A stretch of 39,826 bases of DNA, from the NCBI GenBank assembly GCA_900258555.1, contig LT984854.1:1145705-1185530 (forward strand), given 5' to 3'. Both the position numbers and the translations under genes were made by a program. Source of the stretch: an uncultured Desulfobacterium sp. Its GTDB lineage: Bacteria; Desulfobacterota; DSM-4660; Desulfatiglandales; Desulfatiglandaceae. Below are positions 13,940-29,027 of the stretch, piece by piece (within the stretch, counting starts at the first letter, position 1; every line of letters starts with the position of its first letter). Below the pieces are notes generated by a model that was not told the DNA's origin, ran no database searches, and worked only from the letters and a program-made list of their open reading frames with translations.

Positions 13940-14054
13940 GCCACAGACCCACACAGACAGACACAGACGTTATTTTAATGTGTTATTTCGCGAAGCGACT
14001 GAAATTTTTGTTCGGCCAAGTCGGCCGAACAAAATGTCTGTGTGGGTCTGTGGC
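13940..14054. repeat. Structured repeat element, 19-bp perfect inverted ends
   Basis: GCCACAGACCCACACAGAC (13940-13958) and its exact complement (14036-14054) close a 115-bp unit. Inside are a TCGC-GAA-GCGA hairpin (about 13988-13998) and a 12-bp stem TTTTGTTCGGCC/GGCCGAACAAAA (14006-14034). The same modules occur, inverted, in the element at 16028-16195, so these are two members of one family. Confidence 0.75.
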
Positions 14055-14072
14055 TAAAATAAATAATAACTT

Positions 14073-14435
14073 ATGGATCTCAATGAGATCACTTATCTTA
14101 TTAATGGTGCAATTTTTGAGATTAACCGTGAGTTAGGGTCAGGTTTTCTTGAAAAAGTCTATGAAAATGCATTGTTGATTGAGCTTAGAGAGAGGGGCCT
14201 TAAGGCCGAAAAACAGGTTTCAATTAAAGTAGAATACAAAGGCCATCATGTGGGAGATTATTTTGCAGATATTGTTGTTGAAAATCAGATCATCATGGAA
14301 ATCAAGGCCGTCAGCTCATTGGATAAAATTCATGAGGCCCAAATACTGAATTATCTCAAGGCGACGGGGCTAAAAATCGGCATTTTGGTCAATTTCACCC
14401 ATCCAAAGGCCGAGATAAGGCGTTTCATTGTCTAA
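14073..14435 (+). CDS. GxxExxY protein (PDDEXK_3 nuclease-fold family)
   Basis: One hundred and twenty residues, full length for the family. The naming motif is GSGFLEKVYENAL (G-x-x-E-x-x-Y). Nuclease-fold residues are visible in DYFADIVVENQIIMEIKAV, which supplies the D...ExK core, followed by HEAQILNYLKATGLKIGILVNF. The family has a predicted PD-(D/E)XK fold but no established function. The ATG lies 18 nt after the 19-bp repeat. It is unrelated to the EPS enzymes around it and sits in a repeat-bounded cassette, so it is probably a passenger or a component of the repeat's own mobility or maintenance. Confidence 0.88.
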   Translation: MDLNEITYLINGAIFEINRELGSGFLEKVYENALLIELRERGLKAEKQVSIKVEYKGHHVGDYFADIVVENQIIMEIKAVSSLDKIHEAQILNYLKATGLKIGILVNFTHPKAEIRRFIV

Positions 14436-14465
14436 CCAGCCTGAAAAGTCTGTGTCTGTCTGTGT

Positions 14466-16028
14466 GTGTCTGTGGCAAATACCCTAATCCATAATTTCCT
14501 GGAACAAAGCGCAGAGCAATATCCAGACAAGATCGCTTTGATCCATGAGGATGTCCGCGTAAATTATGCAGACATTAATGCATCTGCAAACCGCCTTGCC
14601 CACTGGCTGATAAAAGATGGAATCAGAATCGGCGACCGAGTCGCCTTGATCTTTGAAAACAGTCTTGAATATGTCGTTGGCTATTACGGTATTCTAAAGA
14701 CCGGTGCCGTTGCAGTACCTCTGAGTACTGATTTGAAGCCCGATGGTCTGGGACGTCTCGTTTCTGAACTGGAGCCGAGGGGCATAATTACATCTTCAAG
14801 ATTTGAAAGGCTTGTCCAGGCAACAGACATCAGTGGCGTAGATATACAATCATTGATAATCAAGGATTTCAAGCTTGACTGGCATTCAGCGTCTTTTCCT
14901 GTCTTTGGCTGGAGAGAGGTTGTTACTGGCGGCGATTCTTCTAATCCTGACATATCAATTAACGATGGATCACTTGCAAGCATCATCTATACATCAGGCT
15001 CGACAGGCGCTCCCAAGGGTGTGATGCTTTCCCACGGAAACATTGTTTCCAATACCCATTCCATCTGTCAGTACCTTTGCCTGACTGATCAGGATATCCA
15101 GATGACTGTCCTGCCGTTTTTCTATGTAATGGGTAAATCCCTTTTGAATACGCACTTTGCTGTTGGTGGAACCATTGTAATCAACAATAAATTCGCGTTT
15201 CCAGCCACTGTAATAAAACAAATGGTTGAAGAGCATGTAACCGGCTTTTCTGGTGTTCCTTCAACCTATGCATATCTCCTGCATAGATCTCCCCTGGAAA
15301 AATATCGCGATCAACTGACCTCCCTGAGGTATTGCTCTCAGGCAGGCGGACACATGTCAAAGAAGATCAAGGAAGAACTCAGGTGCGCCCTGCCTGCACA
15401 TACAAAAATCTTTATTATGTACGGAGCTACAGAGGCCTCGGCCCGGCTGACATATCTGGAACCTGATCACTTTACGGAAAAGATCGAGTCCATTGGTAAG
15501 CCCATTACCGGGGTTACGCTTAAGATATTGGATGAAAACGGACGAGAAGTTCCCGGAGGTCAAACTGGAGAACTGGTTGGAAATGGTCCCAATATAATGC
15601 AGGGATATTGGAGGGATCAGGATGCAACCGCAAGCGTATTGGATCGCCATGGATACCATACCGGCGACCAAGGCTACAAGGACGAAGATGGTTGTTTTTA
15701 CGTAACCGGTAGAAAAGACAAACTGCTAAAAGTCGGGGGTCACAGGATAAATCCACAGGAGATAGAAGATACCCTGATGGAGTCAGACCTTGTGATGGAG
15801 ACAGCGGTAATGGGCGTTGCAGACGCCTTGCTTGGTCACAGGCTGATTGCCCTGGTTGCGCCAAAAAACGGCAACTGCAGTGAGAACATGATCCTTGGCC
15901 GATGCGCGGAAAGAATGCCCAAATATAAGATGCCCTCTGAGGTGAAACTGGTTCGAACACTGCCGAAAAATACCACCGGTAAGATTGATATGTTCAAATG
16001 CATGGAATTGGCAGAAAAGAATGTTTAG
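14466..16028 (+). CDS. AMP-forming acyl/aminoacyl ligase
   Basis: ANL-superfamily adenylating enzyme, 520 residues. All core motifs are present: A3 IIYTSGSTGAPKGVMLSH, A5 YGATEASARL, A7-A8 YHTGDQGYKDEDG with TGRKDKLLKVGGHRINPQEIE, and the A10 lysine in LPKNTTGKID. It should activate a carboxylate as adenylate and load the neighbouring carrier protein. The apparent start is GTG at 14466 (or GTG 14472); both lie inside the right end of the repeat cassette, with no usual ribosome site. The native 5' end was probably replaced by the insertion. Family resemblance is to ligases of exosortase-type EPS loci. The stop TAG shares its G with the next repeat element. Confidence 0.9.
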   Translation: MSVANTLIHNFLEQSAEQYPDKIALIHEDVRVNYADINASANRLAHWLIKDGIRIGDRVALIFENSLEYVVGYYGILKTGAVAVPLSTDLKPDGLGRLVSELEPRGIITSSRFERLVQATDISGVDIQSLIIKDFKLDWHSASFPVFGWREVVTGGDSSNPDISINDGSLASIIYTSGSTGAPKGVMLSHGNIVSNTHSICQYLCLTDQDIQMTVLPFFYVMGKSLLNTHFAVGGTIVINNKFAFPATVIKQMVEEHVTGFSGVPSTYAYLLHRSPLEKYRDQLTSLRYCSQAGGHMSKKIKEELRCALPAHTKIFIMYGATEASARLTYLEPDHFTEKIESIGKPITGVTLKILDENGREVPGGQTGELVGNGPNIMQGYWRDQDATASVLDRHGYHTGDQGYKDEDGCFYVTGRKDKLLKVGGHRINPQEIEDTLMESDLVMETAVMGVADALLGHRLIALVAPKNGNCSENMILGRCAERMPKYKMPSEVKLVRTLPKNTTGKIDMFKCMELAEKNV

Positions 16029-22659: not shown

Positions 22660-23037
22660 ATGATAATCAAATCCGCTAAAGATTTAAGAGCATATAAACT
22701 CGCCTACGAATTGGCGACGGAAATATACAAGATCAGTAAGCAATGGCCGGTTGAAGAGAGATACTCTCTTACCGATCAAATCAGGAGGGCATCTCGATCC
22801 GTATGTAGCAATTTAAGGGAAGCCTGGGCGAAGAGGAGATACGAAGCGCACTTTGTAAGTAAATTAACCGATGCGGACGGAGAGAATAACGAAACTGACA
22901 CATGGCTGAATTTTGCGCTGGATTGCGGCTACATAAGTAAAGAAGACCATAAACGATTAAGCAGCCAGTGTGCGGGGATCGGAAGGATGCTAGGCGCAAT
23001 GCTAAAGAACCCGGAGAGCTTCTTGCCGAAGTCCTGA
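22660..23037 (+). CDS. Four-helix-bundle protein (23S rRNA intervening-sequence type)
   Basis: One hundred and twenty-five residues from ATG 22660. The diagnostic pattern is DLRAYKLAYELATEIYKIS, then YSLTDQIRRASRSVCSNLRE with AWAKRRYEA, and LNFALDCGYIS. The frame is open back to 22564, but that extension consists of repeat sequence, so the internal ATG is preferred. The family was first found inside 23S rRNA intervening sequences and is common as a lone gene in environmental bacteria; function unknown. Direct repeats flank it at 22525-22561 and 23048-23086, marking it as a separate cassette within the accessory zone. Confidence 0.87.
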   Translation: MIIKSAKDLRAYKLAYELATEIYKISKQWPVEERYSLTDQIRRASRSVCSNLREAWAKRRYEAHFVSKLTDADGENNETDTWLNFALDCGYISKEDHKRLSSQCAGIGRMLGAMLKNPESFLPKS

Positions 23038-25487: not shown

Positions 25488-25805
25488 ATGAAGCAAGACC
25501 AATTAGAGGAAATAAAAAAGATACTGCACCCTTTTTTCAGACATCTGGGAGTTAATAAGGTCGTTCTGTTTGGTTCTTATTCCAGAGGCTCTGAAACAAG
25601 AAAAAGTGACCTTGATCTTTTGATTGTAACAAATACAGACAAAAGATTTTTTGATAGATATGGGAGTTTCGAAAAAATCTATGAGCTTATCAAAGACAGG
25701 AATATTGATCTGTTGATTTATACCCCTGAGGAGTTGGACCGAATTGCTCATCGGTCTTTCATAAAAAAAATTCTAACTGAAGGAAAAACCATATATGAGC
25801 ATTGA
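25488..25805 (+). CDS. MNT-type minimal nucleotidyltransferase (antitoxin-like)
   Basis: A 105-residue protein with the MNT signature VVLFGSYSRGSETRKSDLDL: the GS-x-x-x-G motif and the catalytic DxD. Pairs with the overlapping HEPN gene (11 bp overlap). In characterised MNT-HEPN modules the nucleotidyltransferase neutralises the HEPN toxin by adding AMP. No helix-turn-helix is fused. It begins 32 bp after copy B of the segmental duplication, and with the HEPN gene is the accessory unit nearest to the second exosortase. Confidence 0.88.
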   Translation: MKQDQLEEIKKILHPFFRHLGVNKVVLFGSYSRGSETRKSDLDLLIVTNTDKRFFDRYGSFEKIYELIKDRNIDLLIYTPEELDRIAHRSFIKKILTEGKTIYEH

Positions 25806-26217
25806 AAAAAGTATGAAAGAAGCGTTGAGATGGTTAAAGACCGCTGAAGATGATCTCGATGCCGCTACTATCCTTAAGAAAAATGGTAAATTCCCGCAAG
25901 CCTGTTTTCATGCCCAGCAAGCAGGGGAAAAGGCTATTAAAGCAGTGTGGTATTCTATAGACGCTGATCCATGGGGGCATTCAATAAAAAAGCTGATAGA
26001 AGATTTGCAAAATGTTGACTTAAGTCTATGTGAGCGTTTTAAAGTCGTCAGACGCCCTGCAATGATTTTAGATCGTTTTTATATTCCAACACGCTATCCA
26101 AATGGACTGCCTGATATAACCCCTGCTGAAGCATATGTTGAAGAAGATGCGAAAATGTGTATAGAATATGCTAAAAAAATCATTCAGGCCGTTAATGTAG
26201 TTCTTCAAACTCAATGA
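25795..26217 (+). CDS. HEPN-domain protein, partner of MNT
   Basis: A 140-residue all-helical HEPN protein: ALRWLKTAEDDLDAATILKK, ACFHAQQAGEKAIKAVW, GHSIKKLIEDL and LDRFYIPTRYPNGLPD are the family landmarks. HEPN proteins are RNase toxins or scaffolds. The RNase R-x4-6-H motif is not obvious in this protein, so catalytic activity is doubtful. The last 4 bp overlap the exosortase start (ATGA), so this accessory unit is translationally joined to the second exosortase pair. Confidence 0.88.
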   Translation: MSIEKSMKEALRWLKTAEDDLDAATILKKNGKFPQACFHAQQAGEKAIKAVWYSIDADPWGHSIKKLIEDLQNVDLSLCERFKVVRRPAMILDRFYIPTRYPNGLPDITPAEAYVEEDAKMCIEYAKKIIQAVNVVLQTQ

Positions 26218-27068
26218 ACCCAAGCAAATACAGCAACCATATTTCTGCTTTCCTCCTTATCCTTATGGTTTCTACATTCATCTTTGCCTTTTATCCGGCA
26301 TGGAAAAACCTCATCCTCGCATGGAGTTCCTCGGACGAGTATTCCCACGGGTTCCTGATGGTTCCAGTCGCCCTGTACATCGTCTGGCGGAAAAAAGCTA
26401 AACTTGTGTCTATGAAAATTCAGCCATCCAACTGGGGCCTTGCATTTATCATTTTTTCACTGTCCTGCTATCTTTTCGCATACTTTGCAGAGATATCAAC
26501 CCTATCATCCTTGTCAATTGTATTGGTCATAATAGGAACCTTGCTTTATCTTCTGGGCTACCCGATTCTCAAAGAGCTGTTCTTTCCGATCTTTTTATTG
26601 CTTTTTATGATACCTATACCAGCGCAGATATATTCATCCTTGACCGTTCCTTTGCAACTCTTTGTAAGCAAAGTTAGTGTCGCTATTGCAGCCCTACTTG
26701 GGGTGCCCATCTACAGAGAGGGAAACGTTCTCCACCTTCCGGATAGGACACTTCAGGTTGTTCATGCGTGCAGCGGTTTAAGATCCATGATTTCCCTGCT
26801 GACTCTCAGTGCTGTCTTCGGATATCTTACTTTGAGGTCTGACGCTCTAAGAACAGTCCTTTTCATTTCCGGTATCCCTGTCTCCATTCTTGTCAATATC
26901 TTCAGGGTGCTCTTGCTGGTTATTGCTTTCTATTATTTCCGCTTTGATCTGACAACAGGCACAGTGCACACTGTGTTTGGAATGTTAATTTTCGTTTTGG
27001 CATTGATATCGCTCTTTGCAATCAAAGGGGCACTCTCTCTTTGGGACAAATCAGCAACACCAGAATAA
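26214..27068 (+). CDS. Exosortase, second copy
   Basis: Polytopic membrane protein of 284 residues. Catalytic Cys186 (VVHACSGLRS), Arg231 (NIFRVLL) and His252 (TVHTVFG) have the same mutual spacing (45 and 21 residues) as in the copy at 19495. The same landmarks occur: EYSHGFLMVPVALYIVWRKK and REGNVLHL. The two are clearly related but divergent, not a recent duplicate. Start overlaps the HEPN stop by 4 bp. The EpsI gene follows with a 28-bp overlap, the reverse order of the first pair. Which of the two is the housekeeping sorting enzyme cannot be told from the window. Confidence 0.93.
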   Translation: MNPSKYSNHISAFLLILMVSTFIFAFYPAWKNLILAWSSSDEYSHGFLMVPVALYIVWRKKAKLVSMKIQPSNWGLAFIIFSLSCYLFAYFAEISTLSSLSIVLVIIGTLLYLLGYPILKELFFPIFLLLFMIPIPAQIYSSLTVPLQLFVSKVSVAIAALLGVPIYREGNVLHLPDRTLQVVHACSGLRSMISLLTLSAVFGYLTLRSDALRTVLFISGIPVSILVNIFRVLLLVIAFYYFRFDLTTGTVHTVFGMLIFVLALISLFAIKGALSLWDKSATPE

Positions 27069-27688
27069 TCGTCTTGATCATCTGCTTTGCCCTGTCAGGA
27101 GCCTTTGTCCATAAGCAAAGAGCATCCAACAACAGTATGAAACGGACATCCTTGAGCCAGGCGTTTTCAGATTTCCAGGGATGGAAAGGACATGGTTCTT
27201 CCTCGTTTGATCAGGAAGTTGTAAAGTCCTTGGCGCTTGATGATTACCTTAACCAGTCCTATTCAAATGGCAGTGAAATTGTCAATTTATATATTGGATA
27301 TTATTTGACCTTGAAAAAGGTGGGGGCAGCTCACTCACCTCTTGTTTGTTTCCCCGGGCAAGGCTGGGTTGTCTCGGATAAAACAACAAAAGAGATAAAA
27401 ACTAAAGATGGTAATATTGATCTTGCAGTCATGCTTGTGACAAGGGGTCAAGAAAAGAATCTGGTTCTTTATTGGTTTCAGGCCTTCGATAAAACTTGCC
27501 CAGGCACCTTCCTTCAAAAAATCTATACCTTTTGGGCCAAGGTTATGCACTGCAGGGAAGACAATGCTTTTGTGCGTGTAACCGTCGATATGAACGGGCG
27601 ATCAATGGAAGAGGCATATGAAAAGGGTCAAAATTTCATTAAGGCATTTTATCCCCGTTTTCTGGAATACGTAAAAGATAAAGTGTAA
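27041..27688 (+). CDS. EpsI-family exosortase-associated protein, second copy
   Basis: A 215-residue EpsI/DUF3485 protein: an N-terminal helix (IIVLIICFALSGAFV), then VNLYIGYYLTLKKVGAAHSP with LVCFPGQGW, and the CREDNAFVRVTV block near the C terminus. Start TTG 27041 lies inside the exosortase gene. Compared with the first EpsI (18802) it keeps the HSP..C.PG.GW core but differs widely elsewhere. It is followed by a repeat element that carries a GxxExxY remnant. Confidence 0.87.
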   Translation: MGQISNTRIIVLIICFALSGAFVHKQRASNNSMKRTSLSQAFSDFQGWKGHGSSSFDQEVVKSLALDDYLNQSYSNGSEIVNLYIGYYLTLKKVGAAHSPLVCFPGQGWVVSDKTTKEIKTKDGNIDLAVMLVTRGQEKNLVLYWFQAFDKTCPGTFLQKIYTFWAKVMHCREDNAFVRVTVDMNGRSMEEAYEKGQNFIKAFYPRFLEYVKDKV

Positions 27689-27696
27689 CATTGTTG

Positions 27697-27865
27697 GGAC
27701 GCAGATGGACGCAGATTTTCAGGATTTTAAATATAAAGAACTAACTGACAAAATTATAAGAAATTTCTACAAGGTCTATAATACGCTGGGATATGGTTTT
27801 CTTAAAAAAGTTTTTGAAAATCATAGAAAGTAAAAATCTGCGCGTATCTGCGTAAATCTGCGTCC
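27697..27865. mobile_element. Inverted-repeat cassette with decayed GxxExxY gene
   Basis: Left arm GGACGCAGATGGACGCAGAT (27697-27716) and right arm ATCTGCGTAAATCTGCGTCC (27846-27865) are inverted with 2 mismatches in 20. The content is a truncated GxxExxY reading frame. It begins 8 bp after the EpsI stop and ends 13 nt before the start of the next gene, the same stop-to-start fit as the GCCACAGAC family. The repeat sequence is different but the cargo family is the same. Confidence 0.62.
27705..27833 (+). pseudogene. GxxExxY (PDDEXK_3) remnant
   Basis: A 42-codon frame. The ATG is inside the left repeat arm, and KYKELTDKIIRNFYKVYNTL plus GYGFLKKVFEN match the first third of GxxExxY proteins (compare GSGFLEKVYEN at 14073). 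The motif Glu has become Lys and Tyr has become Phe. It ends abruptly at a stop formed at the right arm; the nuclease core is gone. Confidence 0.78.
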
Positions 27866-27878
27866 AAATTTAACTAAT

Positions 27879-29027
27879 ATGGATATACTTTTTATAATTT
27901 TATACATTATCACTATTGGCCTTTGCCTTTCCACTTATGCGTTTTATCCGATAATAATTTGGTTGATTGGGAAGGTGGCGCCTTTGAAGGTCCATAAGCA
28001 TGAATTTGTCCCGACAGTATCCATCATCATCCCTGCCTATAATGAAGCGAAAAACATTCTAAAAAAGATTCACAATACCTTGGAACTGGATTATCCCAAT
28101 AAAAAGCTGGAAATTTTGATTGGTTCAGATGGCTCAAAGGACGAAACAGTTGAACTGGCAAAACAGATTATGGATAAGCGGGTCCGCGTATTTGACTTCA
28201 AAGAAAATAGAGGTAAAACGGCCGTCCAAAACGATCTCGTAAGAGAAGCAAAAGGGGAGGTTCTAATTTTTACTGATGCTGCGTCTTTTCTTCCTCTAGA
28301 AGCCATCACTAAGATGGTGCAAAATTTTGCAGACGAGCGGGTCGGATGCGTTGCAGGGAGATTGAGGTTCATTGAAACTGACGCGACCCTAACCACTGAA
28401 AGTCAAGGGCTTTACTGGCGATATGAAATAAAAATTAGGGGATTGGAATCAAGGATTGGTAGACTAATTGGGGTAGATGGCCCTCTATACGCTGTAAGAA
28501 GGGACTGTTATATTCCTCTTGAGAACAACATTATTAGTGATTTGATTTCTCCTTTGTTGGTACTAAAACAGGGGAAAAAAGTTATTTTAGAGCCTAAAGC
28601 ACTGGTCGATGAGGCACCCACGGTGCGGACGGGTCAGGAATTCAAAACCCGCAGGAGGATTACTCTCCGTGGACTGGTTGGCATTGCAGCATACATAGAT
28701 CTAATGAATCCTCTAAGCCATCCATTACTAGCTTTTCAAATATTTTTTCACAAGGTTTTGCGGTGGATTATTGGACCCGTTGTAATAATCAATGGCTTGG
28801 CCTGTCTGGCACTTACTGAGAGATGGTTTTTTAAGGTTTATATTGCTCATTATGTTTTATTTTTTGTGGCTGCGGCGATTGGTGGAATTCTGGAACGATT
28901 TGGCATAAAAATAAGTTTGCTTACCATTCCTTACTATTTCACCCTTGTGAATTTCGCAGCCACCGCAGGGGTATTAGATTTTCTAAGGAAAAAGCAGGTC
29001 ATTTCATGGACTCCAGTCAGAAAATAG
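27879..29027 (+). CDS. Membrane GT2 glycosyltransferase
   Basis: A 382-residue family 2 transferase with an N-terminal helix (ILFIILYIITIGLCLSTYAF), the GT-A domain VSIIIPAYNEAKNI, LIGSDGSKDETVE and FTDAASFLP (the DxD equivalent reads DAA). QGLYWRYEIKIRG and a terminal set of membrane helices follow. Shape resembles processive synthases and EPS GT2 enzymes. It should add a sugar to the lipid-linked unit at the inner membrane. It has no ribosome site; its 5' region is the repeat cassette. First gene of the glycan assembly set. Confidence 0.88.
   Translation: MDILFIILYIITIGLCLSTYAFYPIIIWLIGKVAPLKVHKHEFVPTVSIIIPAYNEAKNILKKIHNTLELDYPNKKLEILIGSDGSKDETVELAKQIMDKRVRVFDFKENRGKTAVQNDLVREAKGEVLIFTDAASFLPLEAITKMVQNFADERVGCVAGRLRFIETDATLTTESQGLYWRYEIKIRGLESRIGRLIGVDGPLYAVRRDCYIPLENNIISDLISPLLVLKQGKKVILEPKALVDEAPTVRTGQEFKTRRRITLRGLVGIAAYIDLMNPLSHPLLAFQIFFHKVLRWIIGPVVIINGLACLALTERWFFKVYIAHYVLFFVAAAIGGILERFGIKISLLTIPYYFTLVNFAATAGVLDFLRKKQVISWTPVRK

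Follow-up and report, generated by a model that had tools for sequence, protein, structure and literature searches.

A truncated GxxExxY gene between repeat arrays in an uncultured Desulfobacterium and a possible unrecognised class of tiny mobile elements

The stretch of DNA analysed here, hereafter the window, comprises 39,826 nucleotides of a contig (LT984854.1) from an uncultured Desulfobacterium sp. It carries, between two genes of the same strand, a short element bounded by repeat arrays and containing the truncated start of a GxxExxY gene, as well as a second cassette with a gene of the same family. The features are as follows, in positions of the window:

13940 to 14055, no strand: mini-element that has CCACAGACCCACACAGAC ends but no gene, immediately 5' of the gene at 14073 (read directly)
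14073 to 14435, + strand: full-length GxxExxY gene of the second cassette (PF13366, 148 bits; AlphaFold2 pLDDT 96)
14448 to 14477, + strand: right array of the second cassette, GTCTGTGTCTGTCTGTGTGTGTCTGTGG (read directly)
27041 to 27688, + strand: upstream neighbour, DUF3485 protein of an exosortase (EpsH) locus, stop codon at 27686-27688
27697 to 27865, no strand: whole element, probably non-autonomous and derived from a GxxExxY cassette by internal deletion, its DNA matching the loci L027-L030 and L284-L303
27697 to 27716, + strand: left arm, GGACGCAGATGGACGCAGAT, i.e., two tandem 10-bp units GGACGCAGAT (read directly; inverted partner at 27846-27865)
27705 to 27833, + strand: truncated GxxExxY open reading frame of 42 codons followed by TAA, its ATG within the left arm
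27836 to 27865, + strand: right arm, three units in inverse orientation, ATCTGCGCGTATCTGCGTAAATCTGCGTCC (read directly and called as an inverted repeat)
27879 to 29027, + strand: downstream neighbour, family 2 glycosyltransferase, starting 13 nt past the element

With the upstream stop ending at 27688 and the next start at 27879, the element fills a 190-nt gap and leaves 8 and 13 nt spare, which bears out the close fit between stop and start pointed out in the first-pass annotation. The window further encodes a HEPN-domain protein (25795-26217; PF05168, 97.7 bits), directly upstream of the exosortase gene. The element is 169 bp long and flanked by two inverted arrays with units of about 10 bp, its borders being known to within a few bases and some stretches being masked; an inverted pair was called at 27694-27716 and 27846-27868 with a complementarity of 87%. 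As originally described, a 42-codon GxxExxY fragment lies between inverted repeats (27697-27716 and 27836-27865) with its ATG inside the arm, where this codon (27705-27707) straddles the end of the first repeat unit and the start of the second. The reading frame is retained up to the motif GFLKKVFEN, after which come HRK and the stop. Folded as RNA or as DNA, the element lies beyond all 200 shuffles (z -6.0 and -5.1, respectively), and in Rfam nothing beyond one hit below threshold (E 0.42) was obtained.

On the models of the GxxExxY family (TIGR04256; Pfam PF13366 PDDEXK_3), a family annotated as uncharacterised, the fragment covers the first 28-29 positions. It matches positions 1-29 of PF13366 with 23.7 bits (E 6.4e-5), above the curated cut-off of 22, and positions 1-28 of TIGR04256 with 22.1 bits (E 1.5e-4), under the whole-protein cut-off of 35, a shortfall to be expected because the piece is only 42 amino acids long. 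As such, the proposed similarity to GxxExxY survives the profile searches in which it might have disappeared. Considering that 42 codons are short, the frame could have been a chance reading of the palindrome, but the PF13366 score over the cut-off, together with a DNA identity of 83% over 125 nt (E 1.3e-31) to an intact cassette and its gene in another genus, leads us to reject this candidate, whose probability is next to nil. While the catalytic PD-(D/E)XK residues are present in intact relatives, they have been deleted from the window remnant, which is, to judge from its sequence, a fragment and no active member of GxxExxY/PF13366 and which, without its catalytic half, is unable to function as a nuclease.

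The element had been counted as the second of two remnants, but the other GxxExxY of the window (14073-14435) turns out to be a full-length open gene, and full-length cassette genes score 136-149 bits on the family models (TIGR04256/PF13366). Based on an alignment of 96 sequences from the window and the fetched loci, the AlphaFold2 model of its product (14073-14432) reached a pLDDT of 96 and a pTM of 0.87, and the best Foldseek matches were the Cas4-like SSO0001 (E 8e-5), LHK-Exo, RecE and lambda exonuclease; a Cas4/lambda-exonuclease-like PD-(D/E)XK fold is thus confidently predicted for full-length GxxExxY. Across the 96 sequences, E27, Y30, D66 and E76 are invariant and K78 nearly so, with D66 and E76-x-K78 matching a putative PD-(D/E)XK site; at L002, the catalytic E of the E-x-K is lost. 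Searches with the window's full-length gene found no viral relatives, and sequence searches found none of solved structure. PADLOC gave one weak hit only for this gene (16.8 bits), on which ground its identification as a known defence protein was rejected. Elsewhere in the same genome, a further GxxExxY remnant lies between CGCGCGGAGACACATGGACAC and GACACTGCGTCTCTGCGCGAG arrays (L007 1430-1690; C2:47034). A tandem pair of GxxExxY genes (L003 and L005; C1:787664-789374) carries TTAGCGTCCTTCGCGCCTTCGCGG arrays in direct orientation, and the open reading frame between the two genes begins MSEDQIVELVQTKIYSIRNKKVMLDRDIAELYG and is ORF6N-like by eye.

When 85 genomes of the same order were searched with the DNA of the element, matches were obtained in 29, and the intact cassette could be reconstructed, as had been advised, by alignment with intact copies from relatives. 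The latter are about 430 bp long, and in them, too, the start codon falls within the left arm. In L027 (genome G045) and L029 (G016), the same arms surround a full 131-codon gene, which starts inside the left arm with ATG-GAC-GCA-GAT or ATG-AAC-GCA-GAT and ends just before the right arm; L030 (G006) is full-length with one stop, and L028 is also among the intact-cassette matches to the element DNA. Relative to the intact 131-codon genes, about 89 internal codons are missing, in frame, from the window copy, about 81 from L055 and about 58 from L033, while L058 comprises an intact cassette and an adjoining shrunken copy. A rule that internal deletions are always in frame was rejected, since it holds for the window, L055 and L033 but is not supported by many shorter derivatives. 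Among the intact genes L027, L029 and L059, dN/dS is 0.09-0.095 (Nei-Gojobori; dS 0.7-1.7, partly saturated); their differences are mostly silent and these genes therefore work as proteins, the intact gene being, on this codon evidence, under purifying selection.

Full-length genes with GACGCAGAT ends, which the first-pass annotation proposed to look for in the same genome, do exist in relatives (L027, L029, L059), but no complete GACGCAGAT-ended cassette was seen in the genome itself, where the nearest candidate (L004; C3:583081) has a full-length gene with a TCTGCGTAATCTGCGGA array 3' and none in the readable upstream part, the sequence farther upstream being masked. Likewise, the suggestion that N-termini of family members are commonly repeat-encoded holds within this subfamily (M(D/N)AD.QD(F/Y)K) but fails for most other families, and the trait looks subfamily-specific because the left arm elsewhere mostly ends before the matched coding region. 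In many contigs of G016, a separate high-copy palindrome, CCTGCCCGCCATGCGAG..GGCGGGCGGGTCTGCGG, occurs and sits within the right arm in some cassettes (e.g., L055 ~1660-1705).

Besides these longer cassettes, twenty further loci were fetched (L284-L303), many of which measure 65-130 bp and have preserved both arms together with the first 7-15 codons (MNAD.(K/Q)DFKYKEL). From the retained first codons, it follows that the short forms descend from a gene-bearing cassette, and near-identical derivatives occupy different sites in genomes that belong to separate families (L296 in G009, L301 in G041). Many short copies in which arms and first codons are kept is, by analogy, the pattern expected of MITEs. 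The window element itself is short, has terminal inverted repeats, lacks a complete mobility gene and originates from a coding element through internal deletion; in genome-wide repeat counts by pattern and homology search, its exact subtype is single in its own genome and present in many copies in relatives, the own genome also harbouring, at L013 and L014, elements without a gene that belong to a sibling subtype (GATCCGCAGATTACGCAGATTTACGCAGAT). The likeness to MITEs thus lies in the shortness, the inverted ends, the internal deletion of a coding element and the many intergenic copies in relatives, whereas the differences reside in ends made of 9-10-bp unit arrays and in a parent gene of the PD-(D/E)XK type instead of a DDE or HUH transposase. 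By eye, no target-site duplication was seen in the flanks of L284-L303 or at empty sites, where exact borders are uncertain, and the signature of transposition is accordingly limited to the arms, the copy number and the polymorphism of sites.

Such polymorphism is found among sister genomes at two conserved junctions between genes. Between hemB and ahb, an intact cassette fills a 490-bp gap in G045 and shrunken copies are found in G058 and G020, while the element is absent from several genomes of the same family, with gaps of 25-77 bp. Upstream of a heptosyltransferase-like gene, copies of the element are present in G006, G009 and G002, the genes nearly abut in G004, G005, G007, G010, G012, G013 and G014, and other inserts are found in G008, G016 and G017. 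This second junction appears as an insertion hotspot (L304-L319), which in sister genomes is empty or occupied by either the GxxExxY cassette or different repeat elements. For the window copy itself, an empty site was sought in relatives, in which the element alone was matched and its flanks were not.

To appraise the generality of the arrangement, 104 GxxExxY loci were considered, namely 75 named loci from many phyla and one archaeal group, picked by query similarity, and 29 loci from the window's phylum, picked by PF13366 score alone. In the flank test, the 220 nt 5' of the gene were aligned to the 220 nt 3' of it, a match being a score of at least 30 in inverted or direct orientation, with cut-offs scripted before the values were known. 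Matching flanks were found at 78 of the 104 loci (53/75 named, 25/29 same-phylum), inverted at 69, the loci not being independent as several genomes are metagenome-assembled and related. At the same loci, neighbouring open reading frames gave 8 inverted and 8 direct matches (at most 16/225), and none of 30 genes for ParE toxins, a small and horizontally moving family taken as a control, had matching flanks. Flanks of different loci, when cross-paired, gave inverted matches in 114 of 1500 cases, which is read as the recurrence of common repeat types. Since L056 and L058 carry the element's own arms yet score only 17, the flank test is conservative and some unmatched loci are false negatives; beyond these, others of the GxxExxY loci found armless in the test (about a quarter) may be truly bare. 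The general association of GxxExxY with short intergenic inverted repeats, initially proposed from the window alone, holds and spans phyla, and relatives of this predicted nuclease, which across many bacterial phyla and in an archaeon usually lie between matching repeats, hint at a class of tiny mobile elements that has gone unnoticed. A normal gene that degenerated where it stood, flanked by two unconnected repeats of the terminator or REP kind, would agree with the window copy being the single decayed copy in its own genome, but is very improbable in view of both-armed intact cassettes, empty sites and short derivatives at many non-orthologous sites, as well as of flank matches far above the neighbouring-frame and ParE controls.

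Regarding the arms, at least two RCRCNRA units are present on the same strand relative to the gene at 36 of the 69 inverted-arm loci, against 1/69 on the opposite strand, while shuffled arms with at least two such units numbered 0.4 on average and 4 at most. Because this pattern was picked after inspection of the arms, a fairer appraisal is given by the contrast between strands and by the spacing, successive units being spaced 9 nt (46 cases) or 10 nt (25 cases). Common forms of the unit are ACGCGGAT, ACACGGAT, ACGCTGAT, ACACAGAT, CACGAAG and GCGCAGAG. The two repeat families of the window had been deemed unrelated, but their arms are variants of one unit with a spacing of 9-10 nt and therefore rather dialects of that common unit. 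Arm similarity correlates with protein identity (Mantel r 0.35, reached in 0/2000 permutations), a correlation confounded by genome relatedness.

The explanation we find the most convincing, and hold to be probable, is that GxxExxY is the single gene of tiny mobile cassettes moved by the nuclease it encodes, of which the window element is a deleted derivative. A cassette of about 430-500 bp would be composed of (i) an inverted array of two to four 9-10-bp units, (ii) one PD-(D/E)XK gene of about 120-130 amino acids, and (iii) the mirror array. The nuclease would recognise the arm units and cut or nick there, and the cutting would move or copy the element into gene-free spacers; internally deleted derivatives keeping arms and first codons would be moved in trans like MITEs. 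In the window element, an in-frame loss of about 267 nt would have removed the catalytic half and left it unable to produce the nuclease or to mobilise itself. Nuclease activity, arm recognition and the driving of mobility by this protein rather than by another enzyme are here what we infer; no 120-aa nuclease is known to transpose DNA alone, and the papers found contain no biochemical evidence for GxxExxY.

MITEs normally depend on DDE or HUH transposases for their movement, and GxxExxY could otherwise be a passenger (e.g., a nuclease of defence or repair) within a MITE-like element whose arms are recognised, and which is mobilised, by an unrelated transposase. Cargo can indeed vary, since S23 genes, which do not encode nucleases, occur in the same kind of shell: these four-helix-bundle genes (PF05635) have matching flanks at 26/33 loci, and the own genome contains eight full-length ones, including one in the window (22678-22995). 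Nevertheless, the repeat type follows the cargo, S23 arms consisting of 7-nt units (lag peaks at 7 and 14) and GxxExxY arms of 9-10-nt units, the arm sequence tracks the GxxExxY sequence, and the cassettes read hold no transposase gene; a passenger role is thus rather unlikely. The S23 genes of the own genome and phylum, including the window copy and L015-L022, lie between arrays of 7-nt units, and the window copy matches bAvd too. As for small GIY-YIG genes, flanking repeats of mixed kinds were found at 11/27 loci, some resembling ordinary intergenic palindromes or gene duplications, and these genes were rejected as equal members. Several single-domain GIY-YIG genes (among L257-L283) lie between GTCATTCCGGCGAAAGCCGGAATCCAG palindromes, which resemble neisserial dRS3-type repeats. 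At L031 (~1600-1890), a GxxExxY gene of the window element's subfamily is split by a GIY-YIG-like open reading frame bearing CCCTGTTAAATA/TATTTAACAGGG as inverted ends, apparently between TTT and ATGAGAATG and without target duplication, which amounts to a small element nested in another.

The presence of S23 brings to mind the 23S rRNA intervening sequences (IVS) of Leptospira and Coxiella, which likewise have one open reading frame of about 120 amino acids in the loop of a long inverted repeat but lie inside rRNA genes and encode S23, a four-helix bundle and not a nuclease (PMC4990558). Action at the RNA level is conceivable by the same token, with the arms pairing in the transcript, RNase III trimming them, the protein serving the RNA and spread occurring by rare recombination. 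That the window element is predicted to fold into a strong hairpin (z -6) and that similar shells surround S23, the IVS cargo, in the own genome and phylum speak for it, as do the inverted-repeat termini of IVS, whose frame has been proposed to serve mobility, the Coxiella S23 intervening sequence being called selfish and possibly mobile (PMC4990558). On the contrary, the cassettes are intergenic and outside rRNA, the window element sitting between DUF3485 and glycosyltransferase genes and not in a 23S rRNA gene, and a strand-specific unit grammar is not needed for pairing alone; this reading is unlikely.

Coming back to cassettes moved by their own nuclease, comparison can be made with REP/RAYT, where the enzyme fold of RAYT and the form of the REP repeats are unrelated to GxxExxY cassettes. 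The likeness to this system (Y1 transposase) lies in intergenic palindromes together with one dedicated enzyme gene (PMC2817692). In the open-access literature, the nearest published idea concerns the hupL MITE of Ca. Thiomargarita nelsonii, which, its authors suggest, may be the first MITE to derive from a PD-(D/E)XK_2 endonuclease element; it differs by its nuclease (PF12784, YhgA-like) and by 10-bp direct repeats plus a 19-bp inverted repeat (PMC4853749). No open-access paper found links GxxExxY, PF13366 or TIGR04256 to repeats or cassettes, and any priority is, on this open-access basis, provisional. Degenerate arrays of 7-nt intergenic units, i.e., the heptamer repeats (TAACTGA) of Beggiatoaceae and cyanobacteria, resemble the arms of S23 cassettes; they are treated as possible regulatory repeats in PMC4679880, where looking for S23 or four helix turned up no gene tied to them.

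In a wider reading, which is held tentatively, a single Cas4/RecB-like nuclease of about 120 amino acids acting on 9-10-bp arrays would be the entire mobility apparatus of a phylum-crossing minimal transposable element, and, together with S23 elements (7-bp unit), this would explain many orphan intergenic repeats of environmental bacteria. Repeats of the ACGCGGAT, ACGCAGAT or CACGAAG type in the spacers of uncultured bacteria are thereby offered an origin as element ends and deleted copies. For annotation, the warning is that short hypothetical GxxExxY or S23 genes in spacers would usually be element cargo and that some annotated N-termini are repeat-derived. As to PF13366/TIGR04256, a widespread family without known role, the link with repeat arrays suggests a testable one, namely that of the nuclease of a tiny mobile element.
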